Source: Scatophagus argus
Lineage: Eukaryota > Chordata > Actinopteri > Scatophagidae
Length of the DNA stretch: 64,000 nt
Assembly: GCF_020382885.2 (NCBI RefSeq)
Contig: NC_058501.1
Location: forward strand, 5,022,001 to 5,086,000
Reading direction: 5' to 3'
Shown: positions 4,107 to 39,700 of the stretch, one piece after another
Numbering within the stretch: position 1 is the first letter of the stretch
Layout of the letters: every line of letters begins with the position of its first letter
The notes under the pieces: generated by a model
The model's database searches: none
The model's input: only the letters and a program-made list of their open reading frames with translations
What the model was told of the DNA's origin: nothing
Program-made: the position numbers and the translations under genes

Positions 4107-5819
4107 AAGTTGAGGAGCTCTGCTCAGATATTCAGGGTGCTTTCCAGCCTGCTCCTATGGGTGCAGTTGACATGGAGGCTGTCGAGGCTCTGATGTCCAT
4201 GACCGAACACTGGAAGACCTTGAATCTAAAATTCAGGCACCCCAGACCCTTGACTCCATCCTCAGATTGCTCAGAGGATGACTCTGCCCCCCTTGGGTCT
4301 GCTGTGCCACAGGAATCTCCTTTGGTAAGTGATCCATATAGACTGAGAGATGTCATAGCAAGCCTCAGTGAACAAAGGGTTTGCAACAACTGGCCAAGAA
4401 TATGACATTAGGCACAAGATTATTTTGTAGGGCTGTCTATGCTCTGCTACTTGCATTTAGTTATTACAAACTTACTTGAATTTTTAACAGTGCCTTTGCT
4501 TTCAGTGTATGACACCGCCATACAGTCCACCACACTTTGAGGCCACCCATGCACCCTCAACAGCACCCTTACATCGACTTGCAGCAGCCGAAAGTTCAAG
4601 CTGGCAGCCAACAGAAGAGAGTTATACACACGCTGCTGCTTCTCAGCAGCTGTTCCGAAGTACCAGTGTGATCCGCCACACCTCAGATGGCCAGCACTGC
4701 TCCTGCAACACAGAAGACGGATTGACTCAAGTTCGTATTAAAGAGCCTGAAAAAGATTTGAGCTCTGAAGATGGGCTGAAAGGTAGAGATTCTGAGGGTA
4801 ATATTCTAATACAGTCTGACTCCAATGTAACTACCCCACAGAAACCTTTCACAGCCACCCAGATGAGTCTCTCAGGCCCTGATAATAAATCAAAAACCCC
4901 CCAGACTGTCTTCTCTGTCCTAGCCAGTGGCCCAGGAGTCTCTGCTGTACCTGTCTACTGCCAGATTCTTCCTGTCTCTTCTCCTTCTGCCAGTGTCATG
5001 CAAAATCCTGTCATGCCCTCTGAGAATCAGAATCAAAGCCTACAACCCATCTCATCAGCACTCACCACTGTGCAAACACCGCTGCAACAACAGGCATTAC
5101 CACAAACCCAAGCACCTTCTCCCAGTCAGGTCTTCCTGTTTGGGGGGCAGGTGGCAAAAGGCCCTGTGATGTTCCTTGTCCCTCAGCCAGCTGTCTCCAC
5201 ACTCTGTGTCCAGCCAGCACTGGTGACCCCAGGTGGCACCAAGCTACCAGCCATCGCCCCCGCACCTGGCCGTGCATTGTTGGAGCAAAGACAAAGTCCA
5301 CTCCGACCAGAAGTGTCCCGTATGCGCAGCCATGTTTGTCCCCACGATGACTGCAACAAAACCTATTTCAAGAGCTCCCACCTCAAGGCCCACATGAGGA
5401 CACATACAGGTAAGAGATGAAGGATTTTACACCCAAAGAAGTATATTTTAGCATTTTAGTTGTCGAGCACTCTTCTGGATACATTTCACAAAGCAACCGA
5501 AAGTCAGTACCGTATGCAAAATGATGGCACAAGTCTAAGTTTATTATAATCATGAATACATTTTACTGTCTCTCTTCCAACAGGTGAGAAACCCTTCAAA
5601 TGCAAGTGGGAGGGCTGCGAGAGGCGATTTGCTCGCTCTGATGAGCTCTCTCGCCACAGACGTACCCACACGGGAGAGAAAAAGTTTGCCTGTCCCATGT
5701 GCCTCAGTCGCTTCATGCGCAGCGACCACCTGGCCAAGCACGTCAGGAGACACCTAGCAGTGAAGAAGGCGTCCTGCTGGATGTTAGGGGTCACTCAGTC
5801 TTCAAAAAACTCTCTGTGA
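4103..5819 (+). CDS. klf10: Krueppel-like factor 10 (TIEG1-type transcriptional repressor)
   Basis: Coding exons are 4103-4324, 4506-5409 and 5584-5819, with a non-coding first exon ending at 3463. All junctions are GT-AG and in phase, giving 453 residues (human KLF10 is 480). Residues 23-33 ([11 protein letters not shown]) form the Sin3-interacting repressor helix of TIEG proteins. A Ser/Pro/Gln-rich middle contains the family motifs TPPYSP and SVIRHT. Three C2H2 fingers follow at about 352-374, 382-404 and 412-432, with TGEKPF and TGEKKF linkers. They bind GC/CACC boxes in the nucleus. KLF11 is the close alternative; the azin1 and atp6v1c1 neighbours favour klf10. The start is placed in exon 2, as in a shorter known KLF10 isoform. 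A different first exon could add N-terminal residues. The C-terminus after finger 3 is short and diverged. Confidence 0.93.
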
Positions 5820-7580: not shown

Positions 7581-10500
7581 CTAAGCTGGGACAGACAGCG
7601 CAGCCTCTGTTTGGCAGGAATTGAGGAAATAAGGAACCAAAGAGAAGTTCTTCAGTGTAGCCTCGTGGGGCACACCAGTGTCCTGCATCTCAAACCTGGT
7701 GGAGAAAAATTAATATGAGCCAAGGACAAAATCTGCATATTTTTGAACATTCTGGAGGTTTCATTCAATCAGCACAGTCCAAATGTATACATACTCCTCA
7801 ATTTCTTACCAGTCTCTTGAGGAGATGACATAGTATACAGGGGGTGGTGGTGAGTCAGTGGCAGTGCAGAGTGGCTGACCCAGACTGTAGGCCCCTGCTT
7901 GGGTGAAAATGAGCCAGTCTCCAGTGTTAAGCTCAGGCAACACACAGTGCTCCACCACCTGGTCCAGGTCATCCCCTGAGGGACCCCACAGGCTACTGCT
8001 GAACACTGGAGCACCAAGGGATGTGTTCTGCTAACACACAGCAGATTTATTTAAATCAATCAGTCGCTGTGAACTGGAGATGAGAACTTTGTAGGATTTA
8101 TTCAACTGGATTAGGTTTAGGTTGACAGATCTTAATATCATAACCAATTAAGAAAAATTGTTTCACACTTATTTCATATCAATAAATCAGGAATTTGCTA
8201 TCTATGTGCTAACACAGATTAAATGCAGTGTTATCACATCTATATACTGGAGTTCACATGGTGCAGCAGCAATTATCCAAAGTTTAATATCATCAAAAGC
8301 AATTAGTGTGTTATGGACTATAATGCTTCAATTATGAATGTTGCTGCAATGAAGCTGCAAATTCTAAAACACAAATGTATCATACATTCAACCCAGCAGC
8401 ACACAATATCTATACAGAAAATCTATAACCTTCACCTTGTGAACAGATGGAGCAGCAATCAGAGTTTCAGAAAGTTTGCTGGCAAATGATCCATATACTC
8501 CCTCGTTCATGTAGTACTGGAACTCTGGCTCATCGTTGGGAGATGGATCATCTGTTCAGAGAGGTGGTATACAAAATCTATTAGAGTGGGACTGATTCAA
8601 TTTTTGAACTTATTTTTTGTTAACTTGTTTTCATTTTGCTTCAAATTACAGTTTTCTGTCACACATTCGGCTAGTTCCTTTGGCATAAGATCAGATAAGG
8701 TAAGATAAGAACTTTTTTTATATTTATGAATATATGGCTTCAGTGAACATCATGCCACTGACCATGTGCCTGATCCTGGCAATCACGTGCAACCACCTCC
8801 TTGGAGATGATGTTCACAGCCAGAGTGAAAGCAGAGGACACAAAGAAGCCACCAGGCTCAGCAATAATGGAAACTCCAGTAGAAGGGGGGAAGTATAGGT
8901 CCACCATAGACATGACAGCACTATTGATCTGCAGAAGAGTTAACGGTAGAAAAAAAAAAAAATCAGGGACCAAATCAAGTTTTCTGACCATAAATCCTAC
9001 AACCTGGACAATGGCACAATATGCTGACACATTTCTCTACCAGTATTGTTTTTATAGATTGTACTGCTTGATTGTACTACTGAGTGTCCTAGTAGTATCA
9101 TATAAAAAGTAGACAAAAAGATTCTGACCAGTTCCAGCTGAGTCTCAGAGCCACTGAAGCCACCTCCGATGTCCAGGATTTTCATGTTGAAGCCAATTTC
9201 CTCCTGAGGCAGACAAAGGCTTATAAATGTTTGACCAAAACAAAGCAAAGTGAAGAAACAAAACGAATACCCAGTATTTCTAGACCTGCTGCAAGGGTCC
9301 AAAACAAAGCACAGAAACACAGAAGTTGCAAGTAGCTAAATAACAGTATTTAACATTACTTACTCCCATATCAAAGACACAACGGGCATCAGATATGGCA
9401 TGAATGTACACCTGGTCATCCTCACAAGAACTGGAAATGTGAGACCTGTGGGGGGAAGGACAAGGAAAATGCAGCAGTTAAAGATTAAACATTGATGTCG
9501 TCATAGTAAGCTTTATCCTGCAGCAGGTTGAAATTTGTGGAATTTCTGGAGAATGAGCAGAGGTCAAAAGGGCTGATTTGTACCAGTGACAGCATCTGCA
9601 GGACTCACCTGACTCCAACCACCTCCACATCCAGCTCCTTAGCCTTCTCTAGCAGATGCCTGCAGTCCTTGAGAGAGCAGCCAAAAGTCATGCTCATCTC
9701 ATCATCCTGGCTAGACACTTCTGTTGAAATCTGCAGTAGCAGCCTGAATGAAATAAAGTATCTTGGTTACAACTGGCACACAACTAGAATGAGTTGACAA
9801 ACTAGCACATTGAATTACAAAATGGCTACGGCTGAAACCAATTAATATATAACAGCTTACTTTAACATAAAGCCTCTTATTATTGAAGACAAAAGATACA
9901 GATACAGATAGTGTCTGATGACTCGTAAATGCATCACAATTGCACAAATCCGATTACATGATAATGCTGAAATAGTGGCTTTCAAGCCCTATGATCATTG
10001 GCACGAGTACTGGTATTTATCAAGCACATACTTGGCACTGGGGTGGCAACGAGAAATCTTGCGTAGCTCTGCTTCATTATCACACACCAGGAGGTCAATG
10101 CCGTTCTTAGCAGCATATTTAATCTGGGACACTTGTTTGCAAACACCACCATAGATGATATCTTCAGAGGGAATACCATGGCTCTGTACCAGTTCAAGTT
10201 CAGACTGAAATACAAAAAGAAAAAGACAGAACAGTATTTCATTAATATATTGTATTATATATATTATACTTGTGGGATAGTAAACAGACATTTCATCATA
10301 CCATGCACATCCATCATAGTTTACTGCAGACAATCACTGAATTACACAGACCACTTAGTAGTGCCTCTATGTCTATTCTTACAGTTTGTGGACAACACAT
10401 TGTCCAAAATGAACCCAAATAAATAAGAACAGAGTGGTGTATTACTGAACCCAATTTAGTAACCTGTAAAATAGGGGTAGTAAAGTCCCTTGAAAACTGT

Positions 10501-11353
10501 GTTTTCTGAGAAGAAACCTGAACTGACAGTAGTGATCCACCATGTTTTTAAGAGAGTACCTTGTTGGTGCAAATGAATCCAGTGCCGAGGGCACCAAGAA
10601 CTTCAATGACAGTTGGACTGCTGTTACATCGAACAGCATAGTAGGGTCGAATGTGAGCCATGTGGGTTCGCCAGCGAACATGCTGCCTCATTATAACGCC
10701 GAGGTCTGCCACAAAGAATGCACTCTTCTCAGACTGAGGAAGAAGGAAACACACACGTGTGAGTCTAAGAACACATACACTGCAAGCTCTTGCAAAAGCA
10801 TATCCATCCATCCATCCATTTTCTATACCGCTCATCCGTCAGGGTCGCGGGGGGAGCTGGAGCCTATCCCAGCTGACTACGGGCGAGAGGCAGGGTACAT
10901 CCTGGACTGGTCGCCAGTCAATCGCAGGGCCAACACACAAAGACAAACAACCACACACTCTAACACTCACACCTAGGGGCAATTTAGAGTAGCCAATTAA
11001 CCTAATGTGCATGTTTTTTGGTATTGTGGGAGGAAGCCGGAGTACCCGGAGAAAACCTACGCAGGCACAGGGAGAACATGCAAACTCCACATAGAAGGGC
11101 CCAGACCGGGATTCGAACCTGGAACCCTCTTGCTATGAGGCGACAGTGCTAAGCAAAAGCACATCAACATTACAAATACAAAAATACAACTGACTTTCGA
11201 GACAATTCACAGACAGTAAAAATATGCTGATGTTGCTGTGAGACACCTTACCAGTGTTTGCTCATAAATGTGATTGTCAATCACGTCACACAGGGCCACG
11301 CCTGCCTCTAGCAGTCCAACAGAGTATTGTGGTTCGTCAGTGATTCCTTTCAT
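7581..11353 (-). CDS. azin1: Antizyme inhibitor 1 (inactive ornithine decarboxylase homologue)
   Basis: Ten coding exons in transcript order: 11353-11252, 10733-10560, 10204-10032, 9743-9609, 9445-9364, 9203-9129, 8928-8763, 8551-8436, 8027-7810 and 7695-7581. All junctions fit GT-AG and phase, giving 451 residues (human AZIN1 has 448). The protein is an ODC-like alanine racemase barrel plus a C-terminal beta domain. It binds antizyme and so spares ODC and raises polyamines. ODC landmarks are changed: K69 is R69 (YAVRCN), D88 is I88, R277 is Gly in EPGG, D332 is Glu in MNEGVYG, and the active-site Cys is G359 in [10 protein letters not shown]197 is kept. It cannot be a functional decarboxylase. 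Both neighbours support azin1 over azin2 or odc1. An in-frame ATG four codons upstream (11365) is a possible alternative start; 11353 matches the vertebrate MKG start. Confidence 0.95.
10801..11152 (-). mobile_element. V-SINE-like retroposon, copy 1, 5'-truncated
   Basis: The SINE runs on the minus strand inside azin1 coding intron 1. It has a tRNA-like B box (GGTTCGAATCC), the conserved central domain (GCATGTTCTCCCTGTGCCTG) and a (GGAT)n 3' tail. It is flanked by a target-site duplication GCAAAAGCA at 10792-10800 and 11153-11161. The tRNA-like A-box end is missing, as expected for incomplete reverse transcription. Confidence 0.85.
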
Positions 11354-11462
11354 CCTCTCAACCATTTTCTTCTGATCCGACAGGCATAAAGAATGTGGCT
11401 TGTCCAAAGAGGTCTTGCTCACTCCCTCTCGAGCCCCTGGGGTCCTAGACTTACGCAACAAA
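11252..11462 (-). other. azin1: azin1 third transcript exon, with leader and first coding part
   Basis: This exon begins after a CTGTACAG-type acceptor and carries about 100 nt of leader before the MKG start at 11353. A ten-codon AUG uORF (ATG at 11387, TGA at 11358-11360) overlaps the MVER ATG at 11365 in another frame. It stops 4 nt before the MKG ATG. A start at 11353 would therefore need leaky scanning or reinitiation. Confidence 0.7.
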
Positions 11463-12677: not shown

Positions 12678-12799
12678 ATGGATGAGTCCTGGGATGAACT
12701 CGTCCACTATCAGCTAGGATCCCAAGGTGGCTCGGCGTTGAAGTCGAATGGCTCTCGGTATAGAGCTGCCCCTAGATCCTCGGGATAGTTGTTATACAC
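12678..12799 (-). other. azin1: azin1 non-coding exon 2 with the 3' half of the conserved uORF
   Basis: The acceptor TTTTGCAG lies just right of 12799 and the donor GTGAGT just left of 12678. The first 90 nt continue the upstream conserved coding frame from exon 1 and end at TGA (12710-12712). The Pro-Pro-Trp codons are at 12722-12730. Confidence 0.85.
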
Positions 12800-13300
12800 C
12801 TGCAAAAGGACATATGAGGACAGGCCATTATGACTGGCAGTTTAGGATGAATAACTTTGTATAGTCATGTTAAGTCACAATGTCAAACAGTATAGTCTTG
12901 CCCGGTGTTATCAGCCAACAAAGCTGTCGGCAACATATTCAAAACCACGTGACCTGAATATTCTTACGTTTAAAGCTTCAGTTGCCTAGCATGCAATCTT
13001 TACACATCGTTCTGCATTCATTAGCAACGTTAGCATAGGGTATTAGCTTTAGCTACTTACCAACACAAAATATAATTTTTTTTACAATTACTCTTTTTTC
13101 AGCAATAGTACTACTAAATGCTGCTTTATTCTCCATCTCTTGTGGTTAGCATGATGTCTTTTAGTCAAACTGACGCTACGCTAACTGGTTAATTTAACAG
13201 CATGCTAAGTAGCAAGCTAAAAACGCAGTTAGCTAACGTTACTTACGTCGGCTGAAAACCCAAAAGAGGGGACAGAACGCTTTTTCTTTTTAGGCGGAAT
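12710..13300 (-). promoter_or_regulatory. azin1: Polyamine-responsive upstream conserved coding region (uCC) of azin1, AUU start
   Basis: Two leader segments, 13300-13247 and 12799-12710, join in frame across a GTAAGT...CAG intron into 47 codons plus TGA. The frame has an in-frame TAA seven codons upstream of the proposed start and no ATG in between. Its first plausible initiator is an ATT with A at -3, followed by codons for PPKKKKR. Residues 42-44 are Pro-Pro-Trp, followed by DPS and the stop. Published work on AZIN1 describes exactly such an AUU-started uCC with a PPW motif. High polyamine stalls elongation there, queues ribosomes onto the weak start and represses azin1. This copy looks intact. 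The start assignment rests on that knowledge and on the upstream stop; the frame and PPW are read directly. Confidence 0.9.
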
Positions 13301-13480
13301 TTTTAAAGAGTGGTGGGATTACTAAAAGAGAAAAGAATAAATGCCATGGACGTGGTAGACTGAGTCGAGCTATGTGGTTCGATGTTTTATCGATAAGAGG
13401 GTTAGCTAGTACGGACTATTCGTTACGACCGAGCGGAAGGTAACAGTGAGTGGAGGTCGAGTGCGGGGTGAGACGGACCG
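13247..13480 (-). other. azin1: azin1 non-coding exon 1 (5' end approximate) and start region
   Basis: The donor CCGAC/GTAAGT ends the exon at 13247. The 5' end is not defined by sequence. The moderately GC-rich stretch to about 13480 probably includes the transcription start. An AUG uORF of 14 codons (ATG at 13347 in CCATGG context, stop TAA at 13303-13305) ends 2 nt before the uCC AUU codon. If transcription starts upstream of 13347, that uORF would compete with uCC initiation. Confidence 0.55.
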
Positions 13481-18246: not shown

Positions 18247-21200
18247 ATGACAGAGTTTTGGTTGATCTCTGCACCGGGAGAGAAGACCTGCCAGCAAACA
18301 TGGGACAAAATGATGGCAGCCACCACACGTACCAACAACCTCTCAGTCAACCACAAGTTCAACATCCCAGACCTCAAGGTTAGCATGGATTAGCTTGTCT
18401 GTCATTTGTCATTGTCATTTGTCTGTCATCTGGATATCATTTTCTTAGCTGTTTTAAAGTTATATGGGAATTTTAGATGTAAAGGTAGGTTCATATGAAA
18501 AGCACTCACCTTATATATCCACTGTCAAGAGTTAGCTGATTGTGTGTATGGGAAGCAGCTCTTGTACAGATCCATTTCCTGCATGTTGAAGCGTTGAGTT
18601 GGTGAAGTTTTCATCCACAGAGCAGCTCAGCTTCTCTGGTTCAGTTCCTCTTGGTGCTGAAGTAACCCCACTGACCTCGCCGCCACATGGGGCTGTAATG
18701 TTCTCTTGGAACTGTTAGCAATGCATGAACGGCTCTGGACAAAGAGGCGCCATCCTAAGCACATAGGGCCCCCTGGATGTCACTGTAGGCAGACTGAACC
18801 CCAGATGTGACTGTTTAAACACAACCCTGTTGACCCCACTTAAAAACGACCGAAATCTCAGGATTGATGAGTCAGAAGTCGTTATGTGCTGATGTTTGAA
18901 TTTTTGCTTTTTGTGTACAAAAACAGGTGGGAACACTAGATGTCTTGGTCGGACTCTCTGATGAACTGGCCAAATTAGACTCCTTTGTCGAAAGGTATGC
19001 TGTCTGCTGTATTCTGAAACAACATTTCTATTATCAGTCTTGAAGGAATGATTAAATTGTTATTTTGTATAACTTTCATAAGGATATTGAATACAGTCTT
19101 TTGAAAGGTATGAAAAAGGCCCCTCTAACCTGTACAGCACTGCTGACTCTGATGTAGCCGGTTTACTGTTCCTTAATCCCCTCCTGTACCTTGTAACAAT
19201 GAGGAATTTCACAGGGACCTGAGGCTAGCGGGCCTCACACTCTAAACTTGGCAATTTACAGTTGGGTGACACACTAGCAGCTCTTTCTTTAGTCATATTT
19301 ATACTAGATGACTTATGTGCCATGAGTATGTTTGAGCGTAATTTATAGTCTTTTGGAAATATTGACGGCCAAATCTCACACCCAGCCATTACTGCCTGAG
19401 TTCTGCTTTGCTTCCTCTGTAGATATTTCCAAGACTGTGAGAACTACCGGCCTTGCAACACAGTTTCACTTGTTTGTCTACAGCCCAGTCTTTAATCTAG
19501 TTCCTTTTTTGAAATTTCAATCTAGCTTATCTAGAAATAAACAATACCCAAACTAGTGACATCTACAAAATCACTTAAAAAATCTTCGATTAGGTTATAT
19601 GGATTTTTTTTTTGTCCTTTGTACAAGAAAATGTTTTACAAATAGTCAAAATCTAACCTAAGTTGCAGATATACTTTTTATGAACTTTTTCGGCGTGAGC
19701 TGTGACTTGGCTCTCAGTCTTTCTGGCTTCACTGCTGTAGACACAGCCCTGCTTTGATGTGCTGCCGATCAGCGTGGCTAAAAACGATGTCTGCCATGTT
19801 ATAAATTGCCTTGTCAGGAAATTACCTTAACAAGAATATGTGAACCTTTTTGATGTGAGTATATGTTTGTGTTACATTTGGGACATGAGGTCGTGTGAGT
19901 GTGTGGTTTACGGTGGCTTTGTGCATGCGGTTTGTGTTGTCCATGCCGTGTTTTGATGTCTTCTGGCTGTTCACAGTGTGGTGAAGAAGGTTGCTCAGTA
20001 CATGGCTGATGTGCTGGAGGACAGTCGAGACAAAGTACAGGAGAACCTGCTGGCCAATGGAGGTACAGTGATGGTTGCAATGCTTTGAAGTGGTCTTTAT
20101 CAATGGGATAATGCAAAGCAAGGTTCAGTGGGCACTAATGTTAATACCATCTTTTAGCAACACTAAATATTCTTTCCCACCTTGAGAAAAAAAAGTATGC
20201 ATTATCTAAATAAATTTAAAAAAAACAACGTCTGCCTCACCTCAATAAAAAGGAGCTGAATTAAATTTTATTTACCGTGCTTTCAGCATTAAAAAACCTA
20301 TGTTAAAGAAAATTCAACAGCTGCGTCTATCGTCAGCATCTTTGCCCAGGTCACTCTGGATAATCTGCAAATTTTCCTCTCAACAGTTTCCTGGAGTAGA
20401 ACATAGTTCTAATGAATACTGCACAGCAGAGGTGGACAATCTGGCTGAAAAAATAATATCACGAGTTTCTCCATTTTTCTTTCTTTCTTTCTTTTTTTTT
20501 TTTTACAGCTTCTCATCTGTTATGTTGCTAGCTCTAATTTATGTTGCATTCTTTACAATATTTCACCCAAGTAAGAGCCATGTGAAGTAATTTGTCCACT
20601 CAGCAAAGTGCTGGATGGCCACAGCACTGATATGTTGATATGTTCATGTAGTGTTGATCTGCTGGTCAGTGAGTTTATGTCAGTTTTGGAGAAAGAAGCA
20701 AGAGTACATTAAATATATATATATATTAAAAAAAAAGTAGATTGTGGACACCTTCAGAACTGATCTTGATCTAAAGATCAGAGATCTGTTGATTGTTGAC
20801 AGTTTCTAGAGAACCATGTTGCTGATGAATTTTAAAAAAAGAAGTACTTTTCCAATGCATGGAACCAAATTTTATTCACCTCCCTTATATGCGAGGAGAT
20901 AGCCAAAAGTTGTGTGAAGAATACATTAGATTCTGGACAATTAAAATGAACCTTTTAGGCTATTTTCTTTTATGTATCTGAAATCACTAATAAAAGTGTA
21001 TTACCCAACCTCTTACTATAATCTGATAATAATCTAATAGGCTAAAGTAATAGCTTGACAGGTATTTTTGTTATTATTAATTTTTCAGTTGATCTTGTCA
21101 CCTACATCACAAGATTTCAATGGGACATGGCAAAGTACCCCATCAAACAGTCTCTCAAGAATATCTCTGAAATCATCTCAAAGGTAGGCCTCTCAGTGAA

Positions 21201-24200
21201 TTCAGTATGAAGGTTTGTCAATATATGTACAGAGATGTAGAAATATAGACTTTATGTAAACTATCTGCAAAGTTGTGCCTTGAGGGCATGCTACTCTTTT
21301 ACTCACGGTCTTTTCTCTGTCATAATTCAACCATGTTTTTCATGTTTTCTAGCAAGTAACCCAGATTGACAATGACTTGAAGACCAGAGCATCAGCTTAT
21401 AACAGCCTCAAGGGAAACCTGCAGAACTTGGAGAGGAAGAATGCGTAAGTAATCCACATGCAAATGGGCAAGTCTTGTAACACTGCATCATGGCTGAAGT
21501 GTTTTTCACAGGTGGTAATGTAGTCAGCCATATTAAACATGAAGTACAGTCTGGAAAATCTAAATCTCAAACCCAAAATGTATGTGTCCCAGCTGTCCCT
21601 TTTCAGCTGTCATCAAAGGGTCTTTTACTAAGTACTCATTTCTTTCTGTTGCATCCATGTTTTTGTAACACCGTTATGTACCACCAGGGGGAGCCTGCTG
21701 ACCAGGAGTCTGGCTGACATAGTCAAGAAAGAAGACTTTGTACTTAATTCAGAGTACCTTGTCACTCTGCTGGTAGTTGTACCAAAGTGAGTATTACTTC
21801 TCTAGTATGGCAAATATTATATGATTATATATATATATGATTATAATAAGTTAGATGCTTACTTTCTCCTCGTTCTTTCAGGACGGCATATGTTGACTGG
21901 CAGAAAACGTATGAAACACTGGCTGAAATGGTGGTGCCTCGGTCTTCAAAGTAAGTGGTGTCATCATGTCAAATAAAATGTTGGTTGAAATTACATTTTT
22001 TTAGCAGGTGATTTGTTACTCGTATGCTCTGTATGCTTCGGAGTTAATGGCTTATCAGCATAATCACAGCACTATAACAAGCACTTGTCTTTTCTTCCAG
22101 TCTGCTATTTGAAGACAATGACAGCGGACTGTTCAGTGTCACTCTTTTTATGAAAGCCGTAGATGACTTCAAACACAAAGCCAGAGAGAACAAGTAAGGG
22201 TTGCTTAAGAGGAGAGAGTGATCAGCAAATGTAAATAGCTCAAACTAAATATATCAAAGGAACAGTGCTATGGCCAACAAATTAAGCTGATTTTTGCCCT
22301 CTACATTTTGTTTCTAGATTCATAGTGAGAGACTTCCAGTACAACGAAGAGGAGATGAAGGCTGACAAAGAGGAGATGACACGGCTCTCCACAGACAAGA
22401 AGAAGCAGTTTGTAAGTGATGGAACAGGAAAGGCTTTCCTGCTAAAACTTACAAAGTTTCACACTGAGTAGCTTAAGACATAATGGGGTCTAATTCAAAG
22501 GTTTTCCATGTTGTAAATAAACACCTGAGAATTGATTGTTTAAGGGTTACGGTTACAAATGAAGATTACGTTTTCTTTTGAGAAAACAACCAAATAAAAG
22601 CAGTAGGAAATCTTAGTGCTGTGCAGCCAGCAGCAGTCATAAAATGCTGACCACACACAAATCCACTGCAGTAAAAAATGTTTATTTCTTTAAACTTGTT
22701 GACAGAAAGGGAAATGCAGCTCGTTTTCTGTCTATCATACCTGTCTGCTAGTTTGGAGTCATTTTATCTTGTTGATTGCAAATACTTTCCTCTCCTGACT
22801 GGGTGAGACTGAAGCCCGCCACACCCAGAAAATGTATCACCCAAATCTGCATTTTATCTTTTTATCTTATCTCTGCAGGGCCCGCTTGTCCGATGGCTCA
22901 AAGTGAACTTCAGTGAAGCCTTCATCGCGTGGATCCACATTAAAGCACTAAGGGTCTTTGTGGAATCTGTTTTAAGGTACGGCGATGAGAAATATCGCCC
23001 ATACGTGTAACTACAAATAAGCTGAAGTATCATTTGACAGTGGAGTTCAGAAGGTTTCTGAAGAGCGCATTTATGTAACGTGTTCCTCCAGGTATGGGCT
23101 GCCCGTGAACTTTCAGGCCATGCTCCTGCAGCCAAACAAGAAGACCATGAAGAAGCTGAGGGAGGTACTCAATGAACTGTACAAACATCTGGACAGCAGT
23201 GCAGCAGCAATCATTGATGTGAGTACTGTCATAATACTGTTTGAAGGTTCTTAGTACAGGAACTTACTGCACGGCTAAAGCATCAATAAAAACGCATGTT
23301 GAAGCAACATACCAGTAGGCATGTGCTGCTCTAAAAACTTTATAGATGCAAACGTTATGGCACAGAGGAAATGGTAGCAATGGTCCCAAGATTCTGTCTT
23401 CTGCTTCTTAATTTATTTGTTTGATTGACATCCAACATTGCATATATTTATTTAATAATTTATTGAATAATTTCCTGCCAGTAAGTATGGTTGTTGGTTA
23501 AGCATTGTTTAAGCGTGTTAATATTTTTGAAGAGTTTACCATCATGATTAGTATGCAGTACGTTCTATGTAGGACTGGTATGTGTAGTAAGATGGACCGG
23601 GGACAAAGCGATGGAGTCTATCTGCTTTACCTCCCTCACTGTGTCAGAGAATAACTCCATGAAATGCTCCTTTTCATGGCCATAGCTGGTTACTACAGAG
23701 AAGGCAACAGTTGTATGAATCTCTTCATATACAATCTACAGTCTGTACTTGTAGTTGAGTATCAAATAATTGATGTTTTTATTGAGGTATGAAGCTGAAT
23801 TGATCAAAGAAAATCGATCAAAAAAAATCGATCCCAGCCTGGTGAGAAACTTTATTATGAAAATAACTTGTTAATAAATAAAAAATGCTCAGTGCTGCTG
23901 TGTTTTTCTCATTTCACTCTGCCGTGTTCTCATCGTGGTTCAGTAATGTTGTGTCTTTAGTGTTCATGCTACCCCCAAACATCCCCTTCTATTACTGCCA
24001 ACCAATTTGTCATCTACGTTAATTATTTAAAACTGGGCCCTGAAGCTAATATTTTAACATGACGGTGATTTCACTCAGCTTCTCGTTTAAGAGATGATTA
24101 GAGATGAACCTCCAGGTCATCCGACGGACATTCAGAGAGCTGCTTCCACACACTTACAGCCTGCACTGTGTGTTTATTTTTCAGTCTGCGATGGACATCC

Positions 24201-26120: not shown

Positions 26121-26409
26121 CATGTGATGAAGGAGTGAGTCTGGCTTTCCGTGTTGCGATTGCGATGAGAGACACACACGGTGAAGGCTTCAATCACACA
26201 GCTCCCACACACCGTCTCCTGGCTGCTGGTACCGAAACCTGAACAAGACGTCTGGCGGGCGGGGAAACAACCACCGGACCGGACTGCTGCTGGCTGCTGC
26301 TGCCGCCCCGGGGAGCAGGAGAGAAGCATCAATGCCTCCAGGTTCCCTGTCACATATCGGCCTGGACCTGTTCTCGTCATCGGGCCTCCTGCGCTGAGAT
26401 AATGAAAGG

Positions 26410-27225
26410 ATGGCCGAGCGGCGATGCGGGGACCACGGAAGGCTGACGGATGCTGCTGCAGCGACTCACCGGGATGAGCAGCAGCATCACAACACGATGA
26501 ATTTAACGGAGGAAGCAGGAGCAGAGGGTCTCTCTTTGGAGGAGATACTGAGGCTTTATGGACAGCCCATCAACGAGGAGCAGGCTTGGGCGGTGTGTTA
26601 CCAGTGCTGCAGGACGCTGGCGAAGGGACACCGGGGCTGGAGAGGCTCCTCTGCCGCCGCCGGAGCATCATCGGCCGCCGCTCCGAGGAGGATCTCCGGA
26701 CCGGCGGATGTTTGCATACAGAGAGACGGATCTGTGAGGGTGGAACACCAGCGCTGTGAAGGTAAAACATCATCATCTGCGTCTAAAGCTACTCGGATCT
26801 AGGCCAGGCCATCGCCTAAATTTCAAACAATGTTGCTGAGGAGTTGTGTAAAAGACATACACTCCAGGAAGGCAACAGGGCCCAGAAAACCACAGCAATA
26901 CTTGTGAATAATTGCCAAGAGGAATATAAGGGGAATATTCTAGTGGTACCACAGAGTAATAATGCCACTCCAAATGAAATGTGCAGGCCTCCACGTATTT
27001 TCAGCTGCACATGTGAAAGCTTTCTACCTGTTTTAATCGATAAGCTGCTTTATTTGCCCATAATCTGCAGCAGGACAACAACAGCCAGACATAAGGTTTC
27101 ACTGCACATGACCTGATCACAGATAAACAGAGGAATACCATCAAAGACCCCTGCTGCTCACACTCTCATGGCTCCCCATACTGTGGTGTTTTCACTGTCT
27201 TTCACTATTTTCTCCTCACTGAAGG

Positions 27226-36716: not shown

Positions 36717-39700
36717 TAATAGTTTGTCAAAGTGAATAAATTGGTTGAAATTGGTTGGTTCAAGCTTACATAACCAGGTGTCATTTTTTTACATAAAAAA
36801 ACCAAGAGGATTATTATAACAGAATATGAAAATTGATTTTTGGTATTTTTTTGGTATATAGTCTCGAATAGATACACAGAGAAGTGATCTAGAAGGGTAA
36901 AAATGTTATTTCCTCAACTTTAATCTCTGTATGTTTCTAAGTTTAGTTGGTGGCTGCTTCTTCTGCAAGATAAAATATAAAAAAAATTATTTTTTATATT
37001 TATATATATTATTTATAATTTATTCACAACAATAAACTGAGTGGAAAATTGGAAAGAGGGACCTCAGGCTGTGGCTGAGGACCTCTCAGTTCTAGCCAGA
37101 GGTTATAGCAGGTCCCTGGAGTATGTTTGCATGTGCATTGTGTGTGTGTGTGTGTGTGCTCCCGCCTGTGTGGTGTCATATATCAGTGAGTGTTGATCCT
37201 GATGGAGCTTAGACAAAGAGGTGGCATTCAGCCATTCCCCCCTGAGGAAACCCAGCTTTTGCGTGCAGATGGGGGTTAGGGGGGACAGATCTCTCATATG
37301 ACTCCTCCTTCCTCCATGAATGTCCATTGATCTGCCCTTGATCCTCATGTCTACACATGCACTCATGCACACACACACACACACTGTCTTTATGATTCTG
37401 TTTCTCTGATGTCTCACCTTTCTCCTCCCTCCTTGACCCCTCTGGTCCATTCAGTGTCTCTCATCATCTCATGCTTTTTTTTTTCCTGTTGTCTGTGTCT
37501 GATCCTTGTCTTTCTCTGTTCTTTCTGCGTCCCTTCATTTCCCTGTTCTCAGTTTCTTTTGTCTCAGTGGTTTATATGCTGTCTTACTCCCACTCAGTAT
37601 TTTCTCAGTGCTCAGGACTGCAGAATAATCCCCTATGTGATTTCCTGCTCATGCTCTTTTTTTCTTGGCTTTGGCATTGTTGCCTTTATCCACCATGATT
37701 CTCCATGGCAGATGGAGTGCTATAACTATGTGTAGCATCTCCTGACCTAAAAGCACCAATCGTTCATAGAAATGATATTATGTGTTTTCATATTTAATAG
37801 CATTTTATTCAACGAACGGTATTGCTGTTTTTATGTTCATGAATGCATTGTTTCCTTACAGTAATGTTTGTAGCATGTGAGCATTGCAGTATTGAAACAT
37901 GCCATGTTGTGTGGCAACGGGATAGATCACGGTAATGTCACGGTAACAGTAAGGATTGGATTGGTGCATGGTTTGTGTCCAAGAGCAGGTGGAAAAGTCT
38001 TAGATGTCAGACTAAGATTTGTGAGAGGCTAACGTGAGATACCATCAAACACTCATCTATGTTGTTATGTATGTTATGATGTTATAATGGCTGCCTAGCA
38101 AAGTGAGTTTCTTGTGACAAATGCAGCCTTTGCATCTAAATTCTAATGTTATGTTATATATTAAACCATATTGTGGCTGTGGGCTGTTTGGAGCACACAA
38201 TGCCTAGAAATTCACATGCCTGAGGAATGACGATGAGATGTTTTAGCTTTTTGATGCATTTCTATCGTTAAATTTTGTCACTGAAATAAATTCAAAACTG
38301 CTTTATTTGAAGGACGACTTACAAACTTTTTATATTTCAAGTGGACAGGTGTGAGAATTTAGGCTTAGAGGTCTGAAATTTTGAACAGGTGTAGCTGTAG
38401 AAGGTTTATGGAGTCCTTTGCATAGCTCAGGCATAAAGCATGTTCTATTTCATCTTATTCAAATAAGACTTATTTTTGATGAGAATGAAAAAACACCTTT
38501 AGCCATTTTTGAGCTGATGTAGATTAGCTTGTGTTATATTAATATGCCAAACAGAAACTTGAAGATGTTACCTTTCAAAATAGGCAAAAATGAAAACAAA
38601 TAGGTGGCAGCTTAAGAACAGGTTAATGCTGTGATTTCTGGTGGAGTATCATTAATATCCTGCCACCCTGAAAATCTAGGCTGAATCTCAGACAGTGAAC
38701 AAATGGCAGATGACCTCTTACATACCTTTAATTCCATCATACTGACTGTATCCACATGAGTACATGTATGATGTGATGGTGTTTTCCTTTATGTTCCATC
38801 AGTTAAGCATAAGCTCTACAACCAGTAATGTACTCGCACCGTCAGCCTGTCGAGGGCCAGTGAGCGACTGAGTTTGTATGAGTGTATGGATGGCAGAGGG
38901 GGGCTCTTTTGTCAATGCTCGAGTCATCAGATCACCATATCACAGCTGCTCAGCTCAGGCTTGGCACTCAACGCAAAATCATATTACATAACAAAGACAG
39001 AAATCCTTATTTGTTTTTATTATGTGACAGAGGAAGAAAGGACTAATGTACAAGACAAATGATGCATTCTTCACAAATTATTGCATTGTCTGTTTAACAT
39101 TTGTTTGTCATCATCATCATCATCGTCAGACACCAGTGAATTTTATTTACAATGTGTAACCTATGAGGATTGCTAACACTGTTAGATCTACAGATGGAAG
39201 AAACAATGTTCACAGATAAAAGGACTTGCAAGCATGCAAGTGATTATCAACTCAGACAGTACTGATGGAGGTGACACCTACAGAGATGAGTGTAAATGTG
39301 CAAAAGTGACACAGTATATGCAAGAATGAATGCAGGTCATGTGAACATACTTTCCGCTTGTCTCTCTCAGGTGATTGAGTCTCTGGGCATCATGATCTAC
39401 AAGGCTCTGGATTATGGACTAAAGGAGAATGAGGAGAGGGAGCTCAGCCCTCCTCTGGAGGAGCTCATTGACCTCATGACCAACATGGCTGAGGCTGAGA
39501 GGGACACCTGCCCCGACGAAGGCTACGAGGCCACAGAGGAGGAGGACGAGGCAGAGGATGACCCTGACAACATTTCCAGTGTTCATGGCTACAGAGACAT
39601 CCTCAAGGTAGATACATAGCTCAGTGACTGTGGCTGTTTTTCTCCGTTTGTTCACCTTTGGTGTTGTTTTTAAGTTGAGCTTAGTCAGTCATTTTGAATG

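Follow-up and report, generated by a model that had tools for sequence, protein, structure and literature searches.

A putative AUU-initiated upstream open reading frame related to the human AZIN1 polyamine sensor is retained in two azin1 copies of a fish genome

The window, a 64,000-nucleotide stretch of fish genomic DNA, carries a complete azin1 gene on its minus strand, modelled here with 12 exons and with 11 introns that are all of the GT-AG type (Table 1). The encoded protein carries both Pfam domains of its family and scored 568 bits (E 7.8e-170) against AZIN1 4zgz and 561 bits against 3btn, the human and mouse proteins, respectively, compared with 418 bits for the best ornithine decarboxylase (ODC). 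By its sequence, the main gene downstream of the upstream open reading frame (uORF) considered here is identified as azin1. In its product, the segment FSSSLWGPS (about 7984-8000, minus) aligns to FTSSLWGPS of AZIN1, the region of the S367G change, which is made by RNA editing. The change itself is documented for AZIN1 (PMC6313458). The window contains 142 stop-to-stop frames of at least 75 residues; when 20 of these were searched against Pfam, five matched at E 0.01 and 15 matched nothing.

Table 1. Positions of the azin1 leader elements, the main gene and its neighbours (window coordinates unless C17 is given)
Feature	Position	Strand	Remarks
Upstream AUG frame	13303-13347	minus	TAA ends 2 nt before ATT
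Start-site block, CTCTTTAAAAATTCCGCC	13293..13310	minus	18 nt; identical in both fish copies and a human AZIN1 primer
uORF, joined	13300-13247 + 12799-12713, stop 12712-12710	minus	reads IPPKKKKRSVPSFGFSADVYNNYPEDLGAALYREPFDFNAEPPWDPS, then stop; GT-AG intron between
uORF exon-1 part, codons 1-18	13247..13300	minus	IPPKKKKRSVPSFGFSAD; ATT start 13300-13298; donor GTAAGT next
Leader exon 2, entire	12678..12799	minus	GT-AG splice sites at both sides
uORF exon-2 part, codons 19-47 and stop	12710..12799	minus	VYNNYPEDLGAALYREPFDFNAEPPWDPS; TGA 12712-12710, then TAG directly
Pro-Pro-Trp codons, expected pause site	12722..12730	minus	identical in C17 copy and human peptide
Exon 3	11252..11462	minus	main start ATG 11365, in frame with ATG 11353
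9-codon AUG frame, window copy	11358-11387	minus	ends 4 nt before ATG of MKG
9-codon AUG frame, C17 copy	C17 10626422 and down		ends 1 nt before ATG of MKG
azin1 coding region, exons 3-12	7581..11365	minus	456 residues
Zinc-finger gene pieces	4488-5417, 5556-5816	plus	Pfam
V-ATPase subunit C gene, window	18256-23206	opposite to azin1
V-ATPase C piece	23021-23251		Pfam
KIND pieces	26398-26799, 39296-39616		Pfam
V-ATPase subunit C gene, C17	C17 10632223-10637655	opposite to azin1

The azin1 leader holds a 47-codon frame that lacks any AUG and ends in EPPWDPS-TGA, its second part being preceded by the acceptor TTTTGCAG. The nearest upstream in-frame stop, a TAA just after a TAG, lies six sense codons 5' of the ATT. 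No near-cognate start was found between the upstream stop and the ATT, either in these six codons or in the corresponding 20 codons of a second azin1 copy on C17. An earlier note on this DNA had proposed a 47-codon frame split over two leader exons, with an upstream in-frame stop, an ATT in place of an AUG and an EPPWDPS-stop ending, and all of this is borne out by the exon boundaries and codons in Table 1. The PPKKKKR N-terminus that it had also described is present as IPPKKKKR; its counterpart on C17 and in human is IPPKKRRR. Splice signals for the joining of exon 1 to exon 2 are present in both fish copies, and human primers fit the end of exon 1. A structured leader RNA was dropped as a candidate feature, since folding was no better than that of shuffled sequences (z = -1.15; 15 of 100 shuffles at least equal), and retention of the G2-quadruplex described for human AZIN1 (PMC6067879) was not supported: both copies have GGACCCC where exon 3 begins, but the first 70 nt contain three GG tracts in the C17 copy and four in the window copy.

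Openness and a Pro-Pro-Trp motif by themselves prove little, because mononucleotide shuffling leaves the 53-codon stop-to-stop frame open in 10% of cases and the window holds 10 occurrences of CCNCCNTGG, both strands counted. The human AZIN1 uORF peptide, printed as IPPKKRRRFTRLFGPLSHGELSDQVYNYPEGLGEVLYREQFDFNAEPPWEPS in a supplementary-figure legend of PMC9648851, shares 32 of 46 aligned residues with the window uORF; the alignment score of 153 lies 17 SD above that of shuffled sequences (n = 5000; mean -20.2, SD 10.1, best 33). In a search of all 570 Mb of the genome, the printed peptide gave four matches: exon 2 of both the C17 copy (E 1.3e-9) and the window copy (E 5.6e-9), exon 1 of the former (E 0.38) and one other place (E 0.59). 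The significant matches are thus confined to the two azin1 loci; exon 1 of the window copy is absent from the four because it has drifted too far. A DNA pattern, GAACCTCCNTGGGAYCC, had found no match in this genome, having been built on the wrong synonymous codons, and a protein search took its place. Judged from these alignments, the match of the uORF to the human peptide and to the second azin1 copy is not due to chance, and homology is decisive.

The start site is kept at the nucleotide level. One of the human AZIN1 oligos given in the ChIP primer table of PMC11831846, CCCTCTTTAAAAATTCCGCCG, has 19 of its 21 bases in common with each fish copy, and CTCTTTAAAAATTCCGCC is the same in all three, with 10 of its 18 bases lying upstream of the ATT and outside the frame. 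Two other human oligos, reverse-complemented to GGGCCGTTATCTCACGTGA and CGACTCTTTGGGCCGTTATCT, encode GPLSH and RLFGPLS of the human peptide, and their translation suggests their order on the AZIN1 strand. GGGCCGTTATCTCACGTGA matches the C17 copy at 17 of 19 bases and the window copy at 11 of 19; it continues in human as CAC|GTGA, which probably puts the end of human exon 1 at the fish exon-end codon. The extra human residues GELSDQ may then stem from splicing of human exon 2 at an acceptor farther upstream. In the C17 copy, a possible second acceptor lies 21 nt upstream of exon 2 (10627043) and would add seven in-frame codons, GSPVSAQ, near the human GELSDQ site. With AZIN1 as the main open reading frame, homology of the peptide and identity of the start block, the previously claimed match to the mammalian AZIN1 upstream conserved coding region (uCC) is well supported.

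Around the ATT, CpG observed/expected ranged from 1.05 to 1.70 in 200-base intervals centred between -150 and +150 in both copies, compared with 0.30 for the whole window; equally high values recurred in single other intervals at -600 in the window copy (1.19) and at +450 in the C17 copy (1.52). The window copy has ATAAAA at -90 and TCAGTC at -63, words that are common and that the C17 copy lacks. Together they would fit transcription beginning near 13361, some 14 nt ahead of the AUG at 13347.

The uORF of the C17 copy reads IPPKKRRRFSKTYWPLSH and VYERYPEGLGAALYREHFDFNAEPPWDPS on the two sides of the junction, followed by a stop, and has the same 47 codons, split, ATT, Pro-Pro-Trp, Pro-Ser-stop and double stop. 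It is identical to the window uORF at 31 of 47 residues, and the two do not differ at Pro-Pro-Trp or the residues around it, which the human peptide matches almost exactly. Coding pieces resembling azin1 come next on that strand, in order, and a stretch of 149 residues in them scores 156 bits with AZIN1 and 123 bits with ODC. Next to each copy lies a V-ATPase subunit C gene and, farther out, a KIND-domain gene; these shared neighbours fit a segmental or whole-genome duplication, presumably the teleost one. A third V-ATPase subunit C locus lies on C15 (19230640-19232854). The klf-like zinc-finger gene next to the window copy, searched with two frames, had no tblastn match in 60 kb of C17.

Between the two copies, the exon-2 part of the uORF peptide (25 of 29 residues identical) is better kept than the main protein, for which eight tblastn pieces were 44-63% identical, the lowest of them running through an intron. 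Selection was assessed against a null that, in 20,000 runs per test, scattered as many differences as were observed while keeping their share of transitions, ignoring codon and context bias and comparing two sequences only. Under this null, the exon-2 part showed 14 nucleotide differences but four amino-acid changes (null mean 9.3; P = 0.00055), and the exon-1 part 22 differences and 12 changes (null mean 12.4; P = 0.53). Codons 1-5 are identical in both copies, codons 1-8 alone gave P = 0.17 and the whole frame gave P = 0.002. The exon-2 part of the peptide is under amino-acid constraint, as seen between two copies. Synonymous-biased conservation of the frame, whose absence the earlier note would have taken as a refutation, holds for the exon-2 part and for the whole frame, whereas the exon-1 part alone gives no sign of it. 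We do not treat constraint on exon 1 as defining the AZIN1 uCC, because the mechanism rests on the start site and the C-terminus.

The mammalian AZIN1 uORF is described as initiating rarely at its AUU and as pausing at Pro-Pro-Trp in an eIF5A-dependent manner at high polyamines, with a queue reaching back to the AUU and AZIN1 being repressed (PMC9082881, PMC11058473, PMC11550727), and every sequence part of the mechanism so described is present in the fish frame. We consider it very probable, on sequence grounds, that the frame is orthologous to the AZIN1 uCC and is translated from its AUU, and likely, by analogy, that the full polyamine-queue mechanism is at work in fish. For the fish transcript, initiation, pausing, queuing and polyamine response, we infer from mammalian work the following course. 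Most scanning ribosomes would bypass the weak AUU and go on to the AUG of azin1, and a few would initiate at the AUU and translate 47 codons. When high polyamines interfere with eIF5A, these ribosomes would slow at Pro-Pro-Trp, and possibly at the terminal Pro-Ser-stop as well. Others would queue behind the stall, one would be parked over the AUU, initiation there would rise and azin1 output would fall. The AUG at 13347, if contained in the mRNA, could intercept ribosomes ahead of the AUU.

The spacing of the queue is not exactly kept between fish and human. From the AUU to the second proline of Pro-Pro-Trp, both fish copies measure 126 nt and the printed human peptide corresponds to 141 nt, a difference of 15 nt; PMC9082881 puts the AUU-PPW distance at about 30 codons. 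Queuing, if it works in fish, would therefore tolerate a slack of half a ribosome footprint, by which the AUU-to-PPW distance may vary. The same offset, along with the unconstrained exon-1 part, would also suit a plain inhibitory uORF, a frame whose translation represses azin1 but which does not sense polyamines in this lineage. Such a frame would not need the sameness of Pro-Pro-Trp and its neighbours in both fish copies, nor their near identity in the human peptide, and we regard it as unlikely.

Conservation might instead act on DNA or RNA, through promoter, splicing or context signals, rather than on a translated frame. The best-kept stretch of exon 1 indeed straddles the ATT and extends 10 nt upstream of the frame, CpG observed/expected is high around exon 1, and the copies have residues in common in the other exon-2 frames too (18 and 21 of 29; the uORF frame has 26 of 30, stop counted). 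However, the exon-2 changes are mostly synonymous, the match to the human peptide spans the intron and a figure in PMC9648851 deals with ribosome coverage of the human uORF, which makes this reading very improbable. That the peptide works in trans as a small protein is hardly credible despite its conserved exon-2 part, given that the known mechanism acts in cis and that the peptide matched no Pfam family at E 10 and no solved relative (best E 1.5).

On the favoured reading, that of an AUU-started polyamine sensor in the azin1 leader, the sensor is flanked by two short AUG frames. The upstream one, of 14 and 17 codons in the two copies, ends with a TAA 2 nt before the ATT in both and may lie outside the mRNA. 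Its ATGs do not align between the copies (MAFFT), and coding constraint on this frame was rejected on that ground; since CTTTAA is conserved anyway, its sharing may be chance. Before the main start, both copies have a nine-codon AUG frame, MPVGSEENG-stop in the window copy, where it encloses another in-frame ATG (11365), and MIVGLAEYG-stop on C17. The end of this frame is visible in a published human AZIN1 sgRNA, TGGAATACGGCTGAGATGAA: it agrees with C17 at 17 of 20 bases, reads E-Y-G-stop-G-ATG-AA, and two of the three differences are neutral in meaning (GGC/GGT and TGA/TAA). One could imagine a three-step gate composed of a cap-near AUG frame, the AUU frame with Pro-Pro-Trp and Pro-Ser-stop as eIF5A-dependent brakes, and the nine-codon AUG frame, all three in both duplicates, the first stop lying 2 nt before the AUU and the third 1-4 nt before the conserved main start; we hold such an arrangement to be distinctly unlikely.

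The element, its start codon and its mechanism are already published for mammals, and the fish uORF represents a well-conserved relative of this established switch rather than a new one. In 2008, Ivanov, Loughran and Atkins reportedly described conserved uORFs in homologues of ODC ranging from yeast to mammals. Since the fish uORF is an orthologue of the mammalian AZIN1 uORF, the element predates the fish-mammal split; the earlier note's claim of such an age holds for the element, though this is not news, while for polyamine pausing and queuing in fish it draws on sequence and stays presumptive. Its remark that annotation normally misses such frames is a fair one where surveys are ATG-based, one of which extracts uORFs from ATG codons only (PMC7530721). 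The Pro-Ser-stop ending was dropped as an unnoticed feature, as PMC10855120 already links eIF5A-dependent termination on "the PS* uORF" to AZIN1. Full-text searches of open-licence papers listed no title on azin1 in a fish. What is new is retention in both duplicates, conservation of the start site and the two flanking short AUG frames. The locus would add a fish example of an already known polyamine sensor, carried by two gene copies whose exon 1 has diverged and whose exon 2 has changed little. This amounts to a natural experiment on which sensor parts matter, with the start-site nucleotides and the C-terminal half kept and the middle drifted in the window copy.

Among known systems, the AMD1 MAGDIS uORF also belongs to a polyamine-pathway gene and AMD1 termination is described as polyamine-dependent, but it has six codons, a Met start and an unrelated sequence. 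The yeast HOL1 uORF, MLLLPS-stop, has a polyamine- and eIF5A-linked stall and, like the fish uORF, ends in Pro-Ser-stop (PMC11550727, PMC11818727, PMC10855120), but it comprises six codons, lacks Pro-Pro-Trp and precedes a transporter gene; the ending is the shared feature, and HOL1-type membership is not claimed. With the mammalian AZIN1 uCC, the fish uORF shares the AUU and its surrounding block, Pro-Pro-Trp, Pro-Ser-stop and a position upstream of AZIN1, and probably also the two-exon split with its exon-1 end codon. It differs in having 47 codons rather than the human 52, the human peptide containing GELSDQ at the exon junction and lacking one fish codon, and in being carried by the fish genome in two azin1 copies.
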